A stretch of 64,000 nt of DNA from Pigmentiphaga kullae (GTDB lineage: Bacteria > Pseudomonadota > Gammaproteobacteria > Burkholderiales > Burkholderiaceae_B), in the NCBI RefSeq assembly GCF_004216695.1, contig NZ_SGXC01000002.1, forward strand, positions 186,001-250,000. The letters run 5' to 3'. The notes below the pieces were generated by a model. The model made no database searches and had not been told where the DNA came from. It saw only the letters and a list, made by a program, of their open reading frames with translations. The position numbers were made by a program, and so were the translations under genes. This document shows positions 22,447 to 54,363 of this stretch, in pieces; positions within the stretch are counted from its first letter, which is position 1; the number at the start of each line of letters is the position of its first letter.

Positions 22447-22611
22447 TGTACCCCAGGAAACCGCGGATCTGGCTCCGCCAGTCCGCCGGTTTCGCCCCGG
22501 GGACCCGGTGCCGGGCCGCCCCAAGGCGGGTCCCAGCCCCTATGGGGGGCTGCCGCGTAGCGGCTGGGGGTCCACCATAGGGGGCGCGCGACAGCGCGTA
22601 GGGGGGGGCCT
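22447..22611 (-). repeat. Dispersed structured intergenic repeat, copy 1
   Basis: It fills the space after prmB. On the minus strand it starts CCCCCCTACGCGCT directly after the prmB stop and ends with the 37-nt stem-loop at 22457-22493 followed by CCTGGGGTA. Stem segments are GAAAC/GTTTC, GCGGA/TCCGC and CTGGC/GCCAG, with apical loop GGA and one bulged A. The interior is unlike the other copies and has its own hairpins. An 18-bp block at 22510-22527 recurs at 26860-26877. Confidence 0.75.
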
Positions 22612-24650
<2,039 letters not shown>

Positions 24651-25498: not shown

Positions 25499-25583
25499 GA
25501 GGACCCCCCCTACGCGCTTGCGCGCGCCCCCCGAGGGGGCGGCACTGGCGGACCGGCGGAGCCGGATCCGCTGTGCCCTGGGT
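25499..25583 (+). repeat. Dispersed structured intergenic repeat, copy 2 (short form)
   Basis: Order: C-run, TACGCGC with a small GCGC hairpin, hairpin H1 (GCCCCC-CGA-GGGGGC, 25526-25540), then the 37-nt stem-loop H2 at 25541-25577, then CCTGGGTA. H2 segments are GGCAC/GTGCC, GCGGA/TCCGC and CCGGC/GCCGG around loop GGA, with a bulged A. It lies between dapC and dapD, so it would be in the mRNA if they are co-transcribed. Confidence 0.8.
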
Positions 25584-29453: not shown

Positions 29454-30109
29454 TGCAACGCTTCGTAGATTTCTACGCATCCATGTACGGGGCCGAGTCG
29501 CTCGGCCCCAAGGCCCTCGGCTATGTGCCGATGGTGATCGAACAGTCCGGCCGGGGCGAGCGTGCGTACGACATCTACTCGCGTCTGCTGAAAGAGCGGA
29601 TCATCTTCCTGGTCGGGCCGGTGGCCGATGCCACCGCCAACCTGATCGTGGCCCAGCTCCTGTTCCTGGAGTCGGAAAACCCCGAGAAGGACATCTCGCT
29701 GTACATCAATTCGCCCGGCGGATCGGTGTACGCGGGCATGGCCATCTATGACACGATGCAGTTCGTCAAGCCCGACGTGGCCACGCTCTGCACCGGCCTG
29801 GCCGCCAGCATGGGCGCGTTCCTGCTGGCCGCCGGCGCCAAGGGCAAGCGGATCTCGCTGCCCAACTCCCGCATCATGATCCACCAGCCTTCGGGCGGGG
29901 CCCAGGGCCAGGCGACCGACATCGAGATCCATGCGCGCGAGATCCTGTACCTGCGCGAGCGCCTGAACCGGATCCTGGCCGAGAACACCGGCCAGCCGAT
30001 CGAACGCATCGCGGTGGACACCGAGCGCGACAATTTCATGTCGGCGGCCGATGCGCTATCGTATGGCTTGATCGACAAAGTCTTCAGCAGTCGTACCGAA
30101 CAGGGTTGA
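29453..30109 (+). CDS. clpP: ATP-dependent Clp protease proteolytic subunit
   Basis: 218 residues. The catalytic triad is S119 (GLAASMGAF), H144 ([10 protein letters not shown]) and D193. A short N-terminal propeptide ([13 protein letters not shown]) is probably removed by self-cleavage. It assembles as a double heptamer and works with ClpX, encoded 2 bp downstream. Its start overlaps the tig stop. Confidence 0.97.
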
Positions 30110-30111
30110 GC

Positions 30112-31374
30112 ATGTCGGAAAAGAAAGGGTCGAACGAAAAGCTGCTCTATTGCTCGTTTTGCGGCAAGAGCCAGCATGAGGTTCGCAAGCTGATCGCCGG
30201 ACCGTCGGTGTTCATTTGCGATGAGTGCATCGACCTGTGCAACGACATCATCCGTGACGAAGTGGCCGCCGACGTCAAGACCGGCGCCAAGTCCGAACTG
30301 CCCACGCCGGCCGAGATCAAGGAGATCCTCGACCAGTACGTGATCGGCCAGACCCGGGCCAAGCGGATCCTGTCGGTGGCGGTGTACAACCACTACAAGC
30401 GCATCCGTCATGCCGGCGGCAAGACGGACGACGTCGAGCTGTCCAAGAGCAACATCCTGCTGATCGGACCCACGGGTTCGGGCAAGACGCTGCTGGCCCA
30501 GACGCTGGCCCGCCTGCTGAACGTGCCGTTCGTGATCGCCGACGCCACCACGCTGACCGAAGCCGGCTACGTGGGCGAGGACGTCGAGAACATCATCCAG
30601 AAGCTGCTGCAGAACTGCAACTACGATGTGGAAAAGGCCCAGCGCGGCATCGTCTACATCGACGAGATCGACAAGATCTCGCGCAAGGCCGACAACCCGT
30701 CCATTACCCGCGACGTGTCGGGCGAAGGCGTGCAGCAGGCCCTGCTCAAGCTGATCGAAGGCACCGTCGCCTCGGTTCCGCCGCAGGGCGGCCGCAAGCA
30801 TCCGAACCAGGATTTCGTGCAGATCGACACGACCAACATCCTGTTCATCTGCGGCGGCGCGTTCGACGGACTGGAAAAAGTCATCCGCGGCCGTACCGAG
30901 AAGTCCGGCATCGGCTTCGGCGCCTCGGTCAAGGCGGAATCGGAACGCTCGGTCAGCGCGCTGTTCGGCGAAGTCGAGCCCGAGGACCTGATCAAGTTCG
31001 GCCTCATCCCCGAACTGGTCGGCCGCCTGCCCGTCGTGGCGACGCTGGACGAGCTGAACGAGGAAGCCCTGATCCAGATCCTGGTCGAGCCCAAGAACGC
31101 CCTGGTCAAGCAGTTCCAGAAGCTGCTGGCCATGGAAGGCGCCGAACTGGACGTCCGGCCCCAGGCCCTCCTGGCCATCGCCGAAAAAGCGCTCAAGCGC
31201 AAGACCGGCGCCCGCGGCCTGCGCTCCATCATCGAAGCCGCGCTGCTCGACACGATGTACGAACTGCCCACCCAGGGCAACGTCGTCAAGGTCGTCCTGG
31301 ACGAAAACGCCATCACCGGCGAAGGCATCCCCCTCCTGATCTACGGCGACAAGCCCAAGGTCGCCAATAAGTAG
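30112..31374 (+). CDS. clpX: ATP-dependent Clp protease ATP-binding subunit ClpX
   Basis: 420 residues. The N-terminal zinc-binding domain has CSFCGKS (C14, C17) and CDECI (C36, C39). The AAA+ module has Walker A GPTGSGKT, Walker [11 protein letters not shown], sensor/arginine motifs and the IGFGA loop region that contacts ClpP. ClpX unfolds tagged substrates and threads them into ClpP. The ATG at 30112 is preferred; an in-frame TTG at 30106 overlaps the clpP stop. Confidence 0.97.
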
Positions 31375-31520
31375 AGGATCCCCCTACGCGCTGACGCGCG
31401 CCCCCCAGGGGGCGATGCGGGTGGACCGGAAGGGAAGCCCACCCCCAAGCGGCCTTCGGCCGCTCCCCCTCAAGGGGGCGGCACTGGCGGACCGGCAAAG
31501 CCGGATCCGTGGTGCCCTGG
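31375..31520 (+). repeat. Dispersed structured intergenic repeat, copy 3 (long form)
   Basis: It begins immediately after the clpX stop. Order: CCCCCTACGCGCT hairpin, H1 (31400-31413), a half H2 (GATGCGG, GTGGACCGG), then a linker, an AGCGGCC-TTC-GGCCGCT hairpin, CCCCCTCAAGGGGG, and a complete 37-nt H2 at 31480-31516 (GGCAC/GTGCC, GCGGA/TCCGT with one G-U, CCGGC/GCCGG, loop AAA), then CCTGGG. Copy 5 has the same two-part build. Confidence 0.82.
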
Positions 31521-31540
31521 GTTGGGAGCGACAGGGAAAT

Positions 31541-31579
31541 GAAGACGGCCTTGCGTACGAGCAAGGCCGTCTTCTTTTT
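31541..31579 (+). terminator. Rho-independent terminator after clpX
   Basis: A perfect 14-bp stem (GAAGACGGCCTTGC with its complement at 31561-31574), a 6-nt loop GTACGA, then TTTTT. It ends the tig-clpP-clpX transcript after repeat copy 3. Confidence 0.92.
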
Positions 31580-31627
31580 CAATCCAACCGGATGCCGGGC
31601 AGTATCGCCAGTCCCCCGCCAGCCCGT

Positions 31628-31711
31628 TGTTACCCCAGGATGCGGTGGATCCGGCTCCGCCGGTCCACCCGCATCGCCCCCTGGGGGGCGCGCGTCAGCG
31701 CGTAGGGGGGA
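31628..31711 (-). repeat. Dispersed structured intergenic repeat, copy 4 (short form, inverted)
   Basis: It is in opposite orientation to copy 3, and the clpX terminator lies between them. H2 is at 31639-31675: GATGC/GCATC, GTGGA/TCCAC, CCGGC/GCCGG, loop GGA on the minus strand, bulged A. H1 is GCCCCC-TG-GGGGGC, then the CGCG hairpin and TACGCG with a G-run. The flank reads GTTACCCCAGG. Confidence 0.82.
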
Positions 31712-31926: not shown

Positions 31927-34359
31927 ATGTCTGCGAGCCAGATACTCCCTCCCGAACCGATCGAGTTGCCGCTGCTTCCGCTGCGCGACGTGGTCGTATT
32001 TCCTCACATGGTCATCCCGCTGTTCGTGGGGAGGCCCAAGTCCATCAAGGCGCTGGAAGCCGCGATGGAAGCCGGCAAGAGCATCATGCTGGTGGCCCAG
32101 AAGTCGGCCGCCAAGGATGAGCCCTCGGCCGACGACATCTACGAGATCGGCTGCCTGGCCAGCATCCTGCAGATGCTCAAGCTGCCCGACGGCACCGTCA
32201 AGGTGCTGGTCGAGGGGGCCCAGCGCGCCCGCATCACCCGCATCGACGACCTGGGCGCGCATTTTGCCTGCGAACTCGTGCCCATCGATCCCGACAGGGG
32301 CCAGGGCTCGGAAACCGAGGCCCTGCGGCGCGCGATCGTGTCGCAGTTCGACCAGTACGTCAAACTGAACAAGAAGATCCCGCCCGAGATCCTGACCTCG
32401 CTGTCGGGCATCGACGAGCCCGGCCGGCTGGCCGACACCATCGCGGCGCACCTGCCGCTCAAGCTGGAGCAGAAGCAGAAGATGCTCGAGGTGTTTTCCA
32501 CCTCCGAGCGCCTGGAAGCGCTGCTGGCGCAGCTCGAGACCGAGATCGACATTCTCCAAGTGGAGAAGCGCATCCGCGGCCGCGTCAAGAAGCAGATGGA
32601 GAAGAGCCAGCGCGAGTACTACCTGAACGAGCAGGTCAAGGCCATCCAGAAGGAACTGGGCGAAGGCGAGGACGGCGCCGACTTCGAGGAGCTCGAGAAG
32701 AAGATCATCGCCGCCCACATGCCCAAGGAGGCCAAGAAGAAGGCCGATGCCGAGCTCAAGAAGCTCAAGCTGATGTCGCCCATGTCGGCCGAGGCCACCG
32801 TGGTGCGCAACTACATCGACACGCTGGTCGGCCTGCCGTGGAAGAAGAAGAGCAAGGTAAACAATTCCCTGCCGCACGCGGAAGAGGTGCTCAACGACGA
32901 CCACTATGGCCTGGACAAGGTCAAGGAACGCATCCTTGAATACCTTGCCGTGCAACAGCGCGTGGACAAGGTCAAGGCGCCCATCCTGTGCCTGGTCGGC
33001 CCTCCGGGCGTGGGCAAGACCTCGCTCGGCCAGTCGATCGCCAAGGCGACCAACCGCAAGTTCGTGCGGATGGCGCTGGGCGGCGTGCGCGACGAGTCCG
33101 AGATCCGCGGCCACCGCCGTACCTACATCGGTTCGATGCCGGGCAAGATCCTGCAGAACCTGTCGAAGGTCGGCGCGCGTAATCCGCTCTTCCTGCTCGA
33201 CGAAGTCGACAAGATGGGCATGGATTTCCGCGGCGACCCGGCGTCGGCGCTGCTCGAGGTGCTGGATCCCGAACAGAACCACACCTTCCAGGACCACTAT
33301 GTCGAGGTCGATTTCGATCTGTCCGACGTGATGTTCGTGGCGACCAGCAACACGCTGAACATTCCGCCGGCGCTGCTGGACCGGATGGAGGTGATCCGCC
33401 TGTCGGGCTACACCGAAGACGAGAAGGTGCACATCGCCATGCAGCATCTGCTGCCCAAGCAGATGAAGAACAACGGGTTGAAGGGCGAAGAACTCAAGGT
33501 CGAGGAATCGGCCCTGCGCGACATCGTGCGCTACTACACCCGCGAGGCGGGCGTGCGCGCGCTGGAACGCGAGGTCAGCAAGATCTGCCGCAAGGTGGTC
33601 AAGGGCCTGCTGCTCAAGGGCGACAAGCAACAGGTGGTCGTCACGGCGGACAACCTGAACGATTACCTGGGCGTGCGTCGCTACACCTTCGGCGTGGCCG
33701 AGAAGGAAAACCAGATCGGCCAGGTGACCGGGCTGGCCTGGACCGAAGTGGGCGGCGACCTGCTGACGATCGAAGTGGCGGTCATGCCGGGCAAGGGCGC
33801 GATCCAGCGCACCGGTTCGCTGGGCGACGTCATGAAGGAGTCGGTCGAGGCCGCGCGCTCGGTGGTGCGTTCGCGCGCTCGCCGGCTGGGCATCGATCAC
33901 GCGGTGTTCGAAAAGAAGGACATGCACGTGCACGTGCCCGAGGGCGCCACGCCCAAGGACGGTCCGTCCGCGGGCGCGGCGATCACCACGGCCATCGTTT
34001 CCTCGTTGACGGGCATCCCCGTGCGCGCCGACGTGGCGATGACCGGCGAGATCACGCTGCGCGGCGAGGTCCTGCCGATCGGCGGCCTGAAGGAAAAGCT
34101 GCTGGCCGCGCATCGGGGCGGTATCAAGACCGTGCTGATTCCGGAAGAGAACGCCAAGGACCTGGCGGAGATCCCGGATACGGTCAAGAACCACCTCGAG
34201 ATCGTGCCGGTCCGCTGGATCGACCGGGTGCTCGAACTCGCGCTGGAGCGGCTGCCCGAGGCCTTGCCCGAAGAGGAGGCCGCGAAGGCCGAGACCAAGG
34301 TCGAGGCCCATGTGGCTGCCGAAGGTGGAGCTGCCACGGACCCTGTCATGAAGCACTGA
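31927..34359 (+). CDS. lon: ATP-dependent protease La (Lon)
   Basis: 810 residues. The N-terminal substrate-recognition domain runs to about 300 ([23 protein letters not shown]). The AAA+ module has Walker [10 protein letters not shown] and Walker [10 protein letters not shown]. The protease domain has the S681 (DGPSAGAAI) and K724 ([14 protein letters not shown]) dyad. The ribosome site is GAGGA before the ATG. It degrades misfolded and specific regulatory proteins. It sits between clpX and hupB, the common proteobacterial order, but has its own candidate heat-shock promoter and terminator. Confidence 0.97.
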
Positions 34360-49105: not shown

Positions 49106-50158
49106 TTAGAAGCGGTGCTGCAGGCCGACGGCGAGTTGGCGATAGGTCATATCGCGGTTCTCGTCGAAGTTGCGCACGTCGTTGTCGGCGAAGAACGCAT
49201 ACAGGTTGGTGCGCTTGGACAGATCGTAGGTGTAGCCGACGGCCCAGCCGTTCACCTTGGACTTGGTGGCCTTTTGCCAGGCGGCGTACAGCTTGCCGGG
49301 GCCGATCGGGGCGCTGGCACCGATGGTGTAGGCACTGTCGCTGGAGAACTGGCCGCCCGTCGCTACCACGCCGTTGTAGCCGTTCAGGAAGGCGGGGGTG
49401 ATGTTGTTGGCCTTGGCGTAACCGGCGTGGATGGCGGCGACGCCGAAGTCGTACGATGCACCGACGGTCAGGTTGCGGAAGGTCTTGGTGCCAGGCAGCG
49501 GCGATTCCACTTGCTGGTACGTCAATACGCCTTTGATTGGCCCATTGTCGTACTTCAGGCCGGCATCGATCATGCGGTTGTTCTTGCCGCTTTCCGGTAC
49601 TTCGCTTTCGCCGCTCGGGCTGGCGAAGGCGTTGAAGCTGTAACCGACACCGGCCTGGATGCCGTAGAACGAGGGGCTGTAGTAGTAGACCGAGTTGTTG
49701 ACCCGGCCGCCGCCCATCACGGCGTCGTTATAGGCGAAGGTGCTGCCGATGCTGGCGGTGCTGAAGCTCAGGCCGAACGGGTTGGCGATGCCAGCAGCCC
49801 ACATGAAGGCCAGGTTGGTGGTGCGGCCCAGAGTCAGGCGGCCGGCTTGGGCGCTTTCGAGACCGACGAAGGCGTAGCGGCCGAACAGGCGGCCGTGGGT
49901 TTGTTGGCCGTTATCCACCGTGAAGCCGTTTTCCAGGGTGAAGATGGCCTTCAGGCCATTGCCCAAGTCTTCCGAACCGCGCATACCGAAGCGGGATTGG
50001 CTCATCAGGCCGCTATCGATACCTTTGACGGACTGGCCATCGCGCTTGGCGTAGTTGAAGCCCGCATCGACCAGGCCGTACAGCGTAACGGAGCTCTGTG
50101 CGTGAGCGGCGCCGGCAAAGCCTGCCAGCAGGGCGGTCGCGAGTAGGGTTTTTTTCAT
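49106..50158 (-). CDS. Outer-membrane general porin (gram-negative type), paralogue 1
   Basis: 350 residues. The signal peptide MKKTLLATALLAGFAGAAHA is followed by QSSVTLYGLVDAG, the first beta-strand typical of Burkholderiales/Neisserial porins. Other landmarks are RFGMRGSEDLGNGLKA, TLENGFTVDNGQQ, GRYAFVGLES and FGLSF near the constriction loop, and the C-terminal QHRF with the terminal Phe needed for BAM insertion. It should be a 16-stranded trimeric channel for small hydrophilic solutes. It is a clear paralogue of the next gene, with near-identical framework and diverged surface loops. Confidence 0.94.
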   Translation of the reverse strand: MKKTLLATALLAGFAGAAHAQSSVTLYGLVDAGFNYAKRDGQSVKGIDSGLMSQSRFGMRGSEDLGNGLKAIFTLENGFTVDNGQQTHGRLFGRYAFVGLESAQAGRLTLGRTTNLAFMWAAGIANPFGLSFSTASIGSTFAYNDAVMGGGRVNNSVYYYSPSFYGIQAGVGYSFNAFASPSGESEVPESGKNNRMIDAGLKYDNGPIKGVLTYQQVESPLPGTKTFRNLTVGASYDFGVAAIHAGYAKANNITPAFLNGYNGVVATGGQFSSDSAYTIGASAPIGPGKLYAAWQKATKSKVNGWAVGYTYDLSKRTNLYAFFADNDVRNFDENRDMTYRQLAVGLQHRF

Positions 50159-50562: not shown

Positions 50563-51609
50563 TTAGAAGCGGTGTTGCAGGCCCAGAGCGAACTGGCGGT
50601 TGCTCAGGTCCTTCTTGGCGGCGAAATCACGGACTTCACCCTCGACGAAGAAGGCGTACAGGTTGGTGCGCTTCGACAGGTCGTAGGTATAGCCGATAGC
50701 CCAGTTGTTGGACTTGGACTTGGTCGCCTTTTGGTAGGCAGCGTAGGCCTTGCCGGGTCCCAGAGGAGCGCTCAGGCCGATCGTGTAGGCGTTGTCCTTG
50801 GTGAAGTCGGCGGACGTGGCGTTGATGGCGCCGTTGTAGCCAGCGACAGTGCGGATGCCCTTGGCGTTGGCGTAGCCAGCGTACACAGCCACGACGCCGA
50901 AGTCGTAGTTGGCACCCAGCGTCAGGTTCTTGAACTTGCCGTTGTTGGCGGTCAGCTGCGACGGGTTCAGGTACTGGTACGTCAGCACGGCCTTCAGGGG
51001 ACCGTTGTCATACTTCAAGCCCAGGTCGATCAGGCGATCGTTGTTCTTGTTGCCGGCGACTTCCGTGTCGGGGTTCGACTGGAAGCTGTAACCGATGGCG
51101 CCTTGGAAGCCGGAGAAGTTGGGCGAGTAGTAGTAGATCGAGTTGTTGACACGACCCAGGCCCAGATCGGCGTCGTTGTAGCCGAAGGTGCTGCCGACGG
51201 TGGCGCTGCTGAAGCTCAGGCCGAAGGGGTTGACGATGCCGGCGGCCCACATGAAGGCCAGGTTCGTCGTGCGGCCCAGGGTCAGGCGGCCAGCGGAGGC
51301 GCTTTCCAGGCCGACGAAGGCGTAGCGGCCGAACAGGCGGCCTTGGGTTTGTTGGCCGTTGTCAACGGTGAAGCCGTTTTCCAGGGTGAAAATGGCCTTC
51401 AGACCACCGCCGATGTCTTCCGAACCACGGATACCCCAGCGCGACTGGCCTTGCAGACCGCTGTCGATACCCATGCGGCTCTTGTTGCCTTCGAGCTTGG
51501 TGTAGTTGAAGCCAGCGTCAACCAAACCATACAGCGTGACGTTGCTTTGCGCTTGAGCGGCACCTGCGAAGCCAGCCAGCAGCGCGGCGGCAAGAAGGGT
51601 CTTCTTCAT
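50563..51609 (-). CDS. Outer-membrane general porin, paralogue 2
   Basis: 348 residues. Signal peptide MKKTLLAAALLAGFAGAAQA, mature start QSNVTLYGLVDAG, C-terminal QHRF. Residue for residue it follows paralogue 1 in the strands (TLENGFTVDNGQQ, GRYAFVGLES, TNLAFMWAAG), while loops such as the one after SYNF/FQSNPDTEVAGNK differ. It is the Bordetella major-porin type. It has its own promoter and its own terminator, so the two paralogues can be expressed independently and perhaps in alternation. Confidence 0.94.
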   Translation of the reverse strand: MKKTLLAAALLAGFAGAAQAQSNVTLYGLVDAGFNYTKLEGNKSRMGIDSGLQGQSRWGIRGSEDIGGGLKAIFTLENGFTVDNGQQTQGRLFGRYAFVGLESASAGRLTLGRTTNLAFMWAAGIVNPFGLSFSSATVGSTFGYNDADLGLGRVNNSIYYYSPNFSGFQGAIGYSFQSNPDTEVAGNKNNDRLIDLGLKYDNGPLKAVLTYQYLNPSQLTANNGKFKNLTLGANYDFGVVAVYAGYANAKGIRTVAGYNGAINATSADFTKDNAYTIGLSAPLGPGKAYAAYQKATKSKSNNWAIGYTYDLSKRTNLYAFFVEGEVRDFAAKKDLSNRQFALGLQHRF

Positions 51610-53810: not shown

Positions 53811-53961
53811 CCAAGATCCAGGATGCGGTGGATCCGGCTTCGCCGGTCCACCCGCATCGCCCCCTTGAGGGGGCGCCCGAAGGGCGTGGGGGATGGGTTT
53901 CCCTTCCGGTCCACCCGCATCGCCCCCTTGGGGGGCGCACGAAGCGCGTAGGGGGGATCCC
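53811..53961 (-). repeat. Dispersed structured intergenic repeat, copy 5 (long form)
   Basis: It starts directly after the msrB stop on the minus strand (CCCCCCTACGCGCT). As in copy 3 it holds H1, a half H2, the GGAAGGGAA-type linker, a second small hairpin (CGCCC-TTC-GGGCG instead of GCGGCC-TTC-GGCCGC), CCCCCTCAAGGGGG, and a full 37-nt H2 at 53822-53858 (GATGC/GCATC, GTGGA/TCCAC, CCGGC/GCCGG, loop GAA), ending CCTGG. Confidence 0.82.
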
Positions 53962-54363
53962 CTACACCGGTTCGAACTTCAACGAGACCGAATTGATGCA
54001 ATAACGCAGCCCGGTCGGCGGCGGACCGTCCTCGAAGACGTGTCCCAGGTGGGCGTCGCAGACGTTGCACAGGATCTCGGTGCGGACCATGCCATGGGTG
54101 GTGTCGAGTTCCTCGCGCACGTTGTCGGGATCCAGGGGGGCGAAGTAGCTGGGCCAGCCGCAGGCCGAGTCGAACTTGGTGTCCGAGGCGAACAGCGGCG
54201 TGCCGCAGGCCACGCAGCGGTAGATGCCGGGCTCGCGATGATCCCAGTACTGGCCGGTGAACGCGCGCTCGGTCGCCTTCTCGCGTGCCACGGCGTATTG
54301 CATGGGCGTGAGCAGGGTGCGCCATTCGGCATCGGATTTCGTGACTTTGGGCCGGTCGGACAT
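53962..54363 (-). CDS. msrB: Peptide-methionine (R)-S-oxide reductase
   Basis: 133 residues. Zinc-binding CxxC pairs are CVAC and CNVC. The catalytic cysteine is in [11 protein letters not shown], and the substrate site has the GWPSYF motif. It repairs methionine-R-sulfoxide in proteins. It lies 8 bp downstream of selO on the same strand; both serve oxidative-stress resistance. Confidence 0.95.

Follow-up and report, generated by a model that had tools for sequence, protein, structure and literature searches.

A Dispersed Family of Palindromic Repeats Mostly Close Behind Stop Codons in Pigmentiphaga kullae, Read as a Possible Transcript-End Cassette

Introduction

Downstream of clpX in Pigmentiphaga kullae, before lon is reached, two copies of a repeat made of stacked stem-loops face each other around an intrinsic terminator. 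What kind of element is this, and why does it stand at the end of a gene? An earlier note, made from the letters of the window alone (the window being the whole stretch of 64,000 nucleotides analyzed here), had described the arrangement as an inverted pair of covarying 37-nt stem-loops and had found five copies in all. In this study, we followed these copies through the assembly of the same strain (the own genome, G000; 6.22 Mb in five contigs) and through related genomes, using a covariance model, comparisons of gene positions and comparisons of orthologous loci. The copies belong to a dispersed family with a maintained structure, a position at gene ends and between-species exchange. The best reading of this family is that of a variant within the dispersed palindromic repeats which may serve as a 3′ untranslated region (3′-UTR) or transcript-end cassette.

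Results

Anatomy of the Copies in the Window

The window contains five copies of the central stem-loop, H2, at the places and with the arms, triloops, bulged A and 2-nt/1-nt internal loop that the earlier note gave for them, and each of the five forms 15/15 standard pairs when G.T is counted as a pair. The simple unit around H2 is a dispersed, non-coding stretch of ~75–80 nt made up of a C-run, hairpin 1, a C-G hairpin, H2 and a CTGG tail. Copy 2 (25504–25582, plus strand; H2 at 25541–25577) and copy 4 (31634–31710, minus strand) are of this kind, the parts of copy 4 being a C-run at 31705–31710, hairpin 1 at 31689–31702, the C-G hairpin at 31677–31688, H2 at 31639–31675 and a tail at 31634–31638. 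When the sense strand of these two copies is folded, hairpin 1, the C-G hairpin and H2 are recovered at −48 to −50 kcal/mol, with z-scores of −3.0 to −3.2 relative to shuffles.

Copy 3 (31380–31521, plus strand) is an extended unit behind the TAG stop (31372–31374) of clpX (30112–31374, plus strand; a gene call with Pfam domains zf-C4_ClpX and AAA_2, scanned on the longer frame 30106–31374). Its head consists of a C-run (31380–31384), hairpin 1 (CGCGC TGAC GCGCG, 31387–31400) and a C6-A-G5 hairpin (31401–31412), its middle of a half H2 (31414–31429), a second hairpin (31448–31464) and a C5-G5 hairpin (31465–31478), and its end of the complete H2 (31480–31516; 37 nt, 15/15 pairs, covariance model match C2:217464–217522) followed by a CTGGG tail (31517–31521), all on the plus strand. 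Folding the whole extended copy by free energy retained H2 and paired part of the remainder differently. Copies 3 and 4 converge, as had been claimed, between clpX and lon (32008–34359, plus strand, downstream of copy 4; a gene call with Lon_C and LON_substr_bdg on the longer frame 31927–34359), and around an intrinsic terminator (31541–31579, plus strand) with a 14-bp stem (31541–31554 and 31561–31574) followed by T5.

Of the remaining copies, copy 5 (53818–53956, minus strand; H2 at 53822–53858) is an extended unit that follows the gene at 53962–54363 (minus strand) and its TAG stop. Copy 1 (22452–22608, minus strand; H2 at 22457–22493, arm type GAAAC/GTTTC) follows the gene at 22612–23496 (minus strand), with 3 nt between the TGA stop and the head of the copy, and carries within its C-G hairpin an insert of ~80 nt, at about 22499–22579, which resembles the Beta-proteobacterial repeat element (BRE) of Hot et al., 2011 (PMC3110155) and reads CCCCCAGCCGCTACGCGGC..CCGCCTTGGGGCGGCCCGGC on the minus strand. 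A similar BRE-like insert is present in G007, a genome of the same genus, at the orthologue of cluster 17, a locus without the insert in the own genome. The head that the earlier note placed ahead of every H2, a C-G hairpin and a TACGCGC hairpin, is found in its simple form in copies 2 and 4 but not in copies 1, 3 and 5: in copies 3 and 5, a GCGGCC- or GCCC-type hairpin precedes the complete H2, with another head and a half H2 upstream, and in copy 1 the C-G hairpin is present but split by the insert. Elsewhere in the window, two similar genes lie side by side in tandem on the minus strand (49106–50158 and 50563–51609), and their stretches and flank contain direct repeats that are 73–85% identical.

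Family Size and Maintenance of Pairing

That the repeat is more than a chance resemblance is borne out by R1, a covariance model of 16 copies, which gives at least 150 matches genome-wide; the total in the own genome is probably higher than the number listed. From 471 kb around the R1 matches together with the window, 167 sequences passed the sequence threshold, and 166 copies were kept after one truncated copy with 9/15 pairs was dropped. In these 166 copies, 2475 of 2490 possible H2 pairs form and 151 copies have 15/15; stems composed of the 5′ half of one copy and the 3′ half of another are perfect in 29% on average. Since R1 itself rewards pairing, the test was redone on places picked by the sequence of one half alone, in 667 kb that comprise the window and G007 blocks selected for their known or expected copies. 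Among 100 places picked by the 5′ half of H2, 87 form 15/15 pairs, 4 form 14/15 and 9 form no more than 11, and the 3′ half picked 96 (87 with 15/15, 5 with 14/15 and 4 with 11 or fewer). Inspected by eye, the low-pairing places trace to truncation of a copy, to a shift by one base or to a match by chance.

The pairing of H2 is maintained. In the 16-copy alignment, 97.9% of cells pair versus 91.6% in shuffled alignments, a level that none of 500 shuffles reaches, in agreement with the claim that the folded form is kept. Changes on both sides of a pair affect five pairs of this alignment, a number reached by 11 of 500 shuffles. Among 142 copies in arm classes with at least six copies, deviations occur at 12 of 4260 stem positions versus 132 of 994 unpaired positions, and 8 of the 12 stem deviations break the pair. 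Orthologues with the same allele in the own genome and G007 differ at 6/900 stem versus 15/210 unpaired positions (p 1.7e-7). Hairpin 1 has 5/5 pairs in 125 of 140 heads and occurs with four arm types.

The arms themselves are limited in variety. About six paired types of outer arm (GATGC, GGCAC, GAAAC, GGCGC, GACGC and GGTGC, each with its complement) and several types of middle arm occur in H2; the tallies contain reverse readings of palindromic copies, so only the occurrence of types is used here and not their counts. Outside the genus, GACAC/GTGTC and the combination of GCCGC/GCGGC with GCAGA/TCTGC are added (L298, L299) and, by eye, an outer arm GCACC/GGTGC in Variovorax and GACGC/GCGTC in Diaphorobacter, where in both cases a base next to the bulge has changed, and an imperfect outer arm in B. 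anthina. Covariation as the earlier note understood it is true of the pairing, which is retained, but rests mostly on the roughly six outer-arm types that move as blocks in this genome. Because arm alleles travel as blocks, the copies greatly outnumber the compensatory changes that arose independently. Among 88 distinct H2 sequences, counted on the sense strand with rows of fewer than 13 pairs left out, mispairs are G.T in 11 cases versus A.C in 12, i.e., without preference.

Position at Gene Ends

Genes in the fetched DNA were called by a purpose-made codon-usage finder. The family avoids coding DNA, with one of 129 clusters inside a called ORF, and most of its units are placed close behind stop codons, which is what is new here relative to earlier knowledge. 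Among the 162 heads with a neighboring gene, 127 face a stop in the sense orientation and 35 face a start (binomial p 1.9e-13), and single copies between co-directional genes are sense in 56 cases versus antisense in 12 (p 6e-8). In 83 of the 127 stop-facing heads, H2 starts 34–48 nt behind the stop, so that only a few nt separate the C-run from the stop codon. Another 7 of the 127 have a distance of exactly 20, and there the TGA in the hairpin-1 loop of the unit itself serves as the stop. Within the window, copies 1, 3 and 5 are behind stops and copies 2 and 4 are not; copy 2 is antisense to both adjoining genes, and G007 retains its locus and arm type. The stop-end position is also seen in P. 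litoralis, Bordetella ansorpii and Variovorax (stop codons judged by eye) and in plasmids of Diaphorobacter and Burkholderia anthina (annotated genes).

Paired Composites and Terminators

The description of the pair as flanking the clpX terminator is correct at clpX, yet the arrangement is not special to this gene, being one case of a recurrent composite. There are 36 convergent pairs within 250 nt, one close divergent pair, which involves a truncated copy, and two same-strand pairs. Their spacers fall into class A (99–101 nt, 19 pairs), class B (55–57 nt, 8 pairs) and class C (115–125 nt, 7 pairs including the clpX–lon pair), with two further spacers of 88 nt and 128 nt (1 pair each); the clpX–lon class thus recurs as 7 such pairs plus 1 hybrid among the 36. 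The terminator at 31541–31579 is the spacer of a class C composite. A hairpin resembling an intrinsic terminator (a GC-rich hairpin with a T-run) occurs in 8/8 class C or hybrid composites and in only 6/24 others examined (4 of the 36 pairs stand outside this count). It occurs in 4/8 of the convergent genes without a copy, a control set too small to support the idea that copies replace terminators there.

Most class A spacers are a single long hairpin, CTGGGTCTAG to CTAGACCCAG, and they vary from near-perfect long palindromes through to mixed ones. As a genome-wide query, the class A spacer gave 41 matches at 23 places, every one of which adjoins an H2 copy by eye. We therefore treated the spacer as part of the composite and rejected it as an independent repeat. 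In 18 of 20 composites between convergent genes, both heads are within 130 nt of a stop, including 2 composites in which a called gene end lies inside the element. Thirteen plain pairs lie between co-directional genes and one between divergent genes. The composite at G000:C3:605831-606174, which is called between divergent genes, has an almost perfect 100-nt spacer hairpin and is nearly the same in G007. At G000:C4:46838-47182, a small palindrome of head-like sequence (GGAAACTCGCGTAGGGGG..CCCCCTACGCGAGTTTCC) adjoins a class A composite; in G007, the flanks of this locus enclose about 3.8 kb that contain other genes and no H2.

Change Between Species

In the stretch behind clpX, compared by eye in 11 genomes of the genus Pigmentiphaga, a composite is present in seven and absent from G001, G006, G009 and G010. 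Its orientation is alike in G000, G002, G003 and G007 and inverted in G005, and G004 and G008 have other spacers. Between the own genome and G007, 52 of the 129 own clusters could be compared, with flanks that are mostly 93–98% identical. Arrangement and arm alleles are the same at 19 of the 52 loci. The arm allele of at least one H2 differs at 12 (at clusters 94, 105 and 106 the difference is confined to the middle or inner arm), and number or orientation differs at 10; at cluster 126, it is unit number that differs. At 13 loci both genomes have a pair, and at 4 of these the pair is swapped end for end. Seven of the 52 loci are without H2 in G007, two of them (95 and 114) as edge artefacts in which the G007 stretch starts inside H2. 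A clean empty site or a target duplication is found at none of the other five, and at two of these (84 and 87) the gene of the own genome ends on the element's TGA. At the locus of copy 5, the compared stretch of G007 measures 71 nt versus 214 in the window and is without H2.

Spread Across Genomes

The search of the genome and of other Burkholderiales that the earlier note had proposed located the family in the own genome and in several genera. R1 matches were obtained in 14 of 41 relatives, with none in the 16 from other families of the order, and a sample of 200 genomes from the family gave matches in 39 (7 of 43 genera); the surveys of 41 and 200 genomes used stricter filters, under which weak matches were lost. 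Within the genus the count is patchy, from 0 (G010) through 4, 37 and 42 to at least 135. G010 is a 6.2-Mb genome of the same genus that has no R1 match at threshold and differs in sequence downstream of clpX. Pigmentiphaga sp. NML030171, whose LexA is 99% identical to that of the own genome, and NML080357 have the highest counts, both of them lower bounds, and P. litoralis has 42; B. ansorpii has 5, B. hinzii 0, Polaromonas sp. CG9_12 9 weak ones and three Comamonas 0, and across the genus Bordetella 1–9 matches occur in 5 of 15 genomes. In another genus, G015:C1:3180400-3180716 has four R1 matches with an 86-bp period, i.e., a tandem H2 array. The tandem units are seen likewise in the stretch L045 of G015.

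Among plasmid records, the clpX–lon composite has 3 partial matches, the Variovorax unit matches 4 records and window copy 5 matches none. The clpX–lon composite had no match in the phage collection searched with it, and a phage origin was rejected on this ground. A match in Methylibium inside an annotated transposase frame was rejected as evidence for an autonomous partner, the sole Pfam match of the frame being a short HTH_Tnp_1 domain.

Discussion

We lean, if only slightly, toward the reading that the dispersed unit is the first stretch of the 3′-UTR of many genes and a transcript-end cassette. Such a role is suggested by the place and orientation of the units and by the built-in terminator of class C. 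A transcript that runs into a unit would end in stacked stable hairpins blocking 3′ exonucleases, and the same stack would help to end transcription, with an intrinsic terminator carried in addition by class C composites. If the hairpins do protect or end the transcript, a copy at a gene end would be tolerated or even useful. Copies may be exchanged and inverted via recombination between their near-identical inverted ends, and the rarer new insertions would stem from some other activity. Several observations count against the cassette reading: the strand test gave no preference for sense RNA; 35 of 162 heads, those of window copies 2 and 4 among them, face no stop; a terminator-like hairpin is present in only 6 of the 24 other composites examined; and TAG is enriched upstream of heads that do not face a stop.

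It is important to consider what this reading would imply. If true, one structured element has replaced many gene ends in a bacterium, and gene ends have been swapped, multiplied and inverted while the genes stayed in place. The role of hairpins behind stops would then be testable with the natural occupied and unoccupied versions of a gene in related species. Doublets resembling REPINs would be thriving without a REP-associated tyrosine transposase (RAYT), so that another mobilizing route must exist. Should the family be merely a selfish repeat, it would still be large and well delimited, and suited to studies of palindrome upkeep and cassette exchange.

The latter alternative, a miniature element (REPIN- or MITE-like) that is purely selfish and whose hairpins are recognized by a transposase acting in trans, with a target preference for TAG and survival explaining the gene-end position, is a serious contender, although we hold it to be somewhat short of probable. 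It is favored by the TAG triplets around the heads. TAG is the stop codon in 47 of 111 head-faced genes versus 35 of 186 other genes (p 1.6e-5), and among the 30 heads that do not face a stop, 13 have it in the preceding 14 nt, versus 6.4% of background 14-mers; these counts use 140 of 163 heads, 14 being without a recognizable head string and 9 having a string too distant. The strings TAGAG, TAGRGG or TAGAAG stand just upstream of 25 of the 140 heads (23 of 110 stop-facing and 2 of 30 not) versus 0.45% in the background and 1 of 203 other gene ends. Since TAG is enriched even at heads that face no stop, the placement may in part reflect an insertion preference and not a function. TAG, which stands at varying distance upstream of the heads, is either a preferred target or carried by the element's own 5′ end. 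The latter is favored because the tandem units of G015 start with TAGGTCCACCCCC (L045) and disfavored because the string count is low at heads facing no stop. The inverted pairs with few spacer lengths and a copy number that varies patchily through the genus, from 0 in G010 to at least 135, also fit a selfish element. On the other side, 13 of 14 repeat-bearing genomes are without a match to a Y1 transposase, the transposase scan, which covered the Y1 type (PF01797), brought out no autonomous partner, and the five loci without H2 in G007 include no clean empty site or target duplication. It is the equal numbers of G.T (11) and A.C (12) mispairs, together with the TAG enrichment, that keep a selfish or DNA-level reading alive.

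A more far-reaching form of the cassette reading would make the unit a mobile gene-ending module, i.e., a non-autonomous element that can supply a stop and 3′-UTR hairpins, that settles on a gene end and takes its place, and that in pairs would end the transcripts of convergent genes as an invertible cassette working in both directions, spread without RAYT. We regard this as possible but rather doubtful.

That the palindromes are upheld by replication and repair alone, through template switching and gene conversion with no selection for the fold, we consider unlikely. The movement of arm alleles as blocks and the swapping and inversion of composites in place would fit such upkeep, as would class A spacers that range from near-perfect to mixed, as exchange of arms would produce. 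However, mixed arms are found in many class A spacers and are rare in H2 (87 of 100 places with 15/15 pairs and 4 with 14/15), and the same plan is kept with other arms in other genera.

It is less likely still that the element is simply BRE. In the sections of PMC3110155 that describe it, BRE is a repeat of ~85–90 bp with two tandem copies beside lexA in B. pertussis, and Table 2 there gives it up to 29 copies per genome in genera including Acidovorax, Rhodoferax and Azoarcus. In G053, a 4.0-Mb genome of the genus Bordetella that is probably B. pertussis, two tandem units of ~85 bp lie behind the lexA stop (L226), which fits the published BRE locus 3, and part of the locus has matches among plasmids of Acidovorax, Rhodoferax and Azoarcus. 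Identity with BRE is favored by the Burkholderiales hosts, the length of ~85–90 bp, the two tandem copies, which PMC3110155 reports for B. pertussis, and the shared head behind the lexA stop in G053, and H2 units too occur in tandem, with the 86-bp period in G015. The lexA units of G053, however, consist of a C-run, a hairpin and a C6-G6 hairpin followed by a T-run and a GCCTTGGGGCGGCCCAGCGGC / GCCTTGGGGCGG module; they have no H2, the place of which is taken by the T-run and GCCTTGGGGCGGCCCAGCGGC, and R1 has 0 matches in G053. BRE-like stretches moreover sit as inserts within some H2 units. With head and position shared, and H2 in one versus a T-run in the other, BRE and the window element differ in their third module.

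The RAYT lead of the earlier note came to nothing: REP sequences or REPINs mobilized by RAYT would account for inverted doublets with short spacers, an intergenic position and more than 100 copies, but this explanation was rejected as highly improbable after a search for PF01797 in the own genome and 41 relatives, the domain being absent from the own genome and from 13 of 14 repeat-bearing relatives (the fourteenth, G009, has a short match) and present in 13 of 27 without the repeat.

Comparison With Known Repeat Families

A scan of the window against Rfam at the gathering score returned two tRNAs only, and a known RNA family was rejected accordingly. Correia/NEMIS are miniature palindromic elements of a betaproteobacterium that are co-transcribed with genes. 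The window element may differ from them in the TA duplication, for which the five loci without H2 in G007 gave no clean empty site. The passages of the published literature that our search returned contain no description of H2 or its composites. The earlier note, which knew of no named family for the repeat, is borne out with respect to Rfam, but BRE, as described in parts of PMC3110155, is related in plan and place.

Bor or Bor-1 repeats are described in passages of PMC1590033 and PMC2267715 as intergenic stem-loop repeats of Bordetella near coding regions, which the authors liken to the REPs of E. coli; Bor-1 has 128 matches in B. pertussis, 78 of them across the whole model (PMC2267715). 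Compared by these descriptions, the window element is unlike Bor-1 in that R1 has 0 matches in G053, the probable B. pertussis.

With REPINs and REPs, as portrayed in passages of PMC3116915 and PMC3733652, the family shares inverted doublets, conserved ends, a spacer with compensatory changes, an intergenic position and a high copy number, and its doublet spacers fall into few lengths as in REPINs. It differs in having no RAYT, three hairpins of ~80 nt versus 20–40 nt, and doublets that span roughly 210–330 nt or more. Hairpins close behind stops are known from the REPs of E. coli, for which PMC12306157 places 446 of 4,072 predictions (about 11%) no farther than 15 nt from a stop codon and cites an earlier study in which stop-near REPs stall ribosomes and lower translation. 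In contrast to this share of ~11%, most heads of the window family start a few nt from a stop, and some supply the stop.

BRE, in the parts of PMC3110155 that describe it, comes closest in outline, with hosts in the Burkholderiales, a mostly intergenic position, GC-rich units of 75–91 bp, a copy number that varies at kept loci, and tandem copies; at lexA in G053, it has the same C-run, first hairpin and C6-G6 hairpin directly behind a stop codon. The window element is unlike BRE, which was seen here at one locus of one genome, in having H2 after the C-G hairpin, and it is present in at least 150 copies versus at most 29 per genome for BRE (Table 2 of PMC3110155). Taken together, the repeat resembles an exchangeable cassette at gene ends more closely than it does the repeat families described so far.
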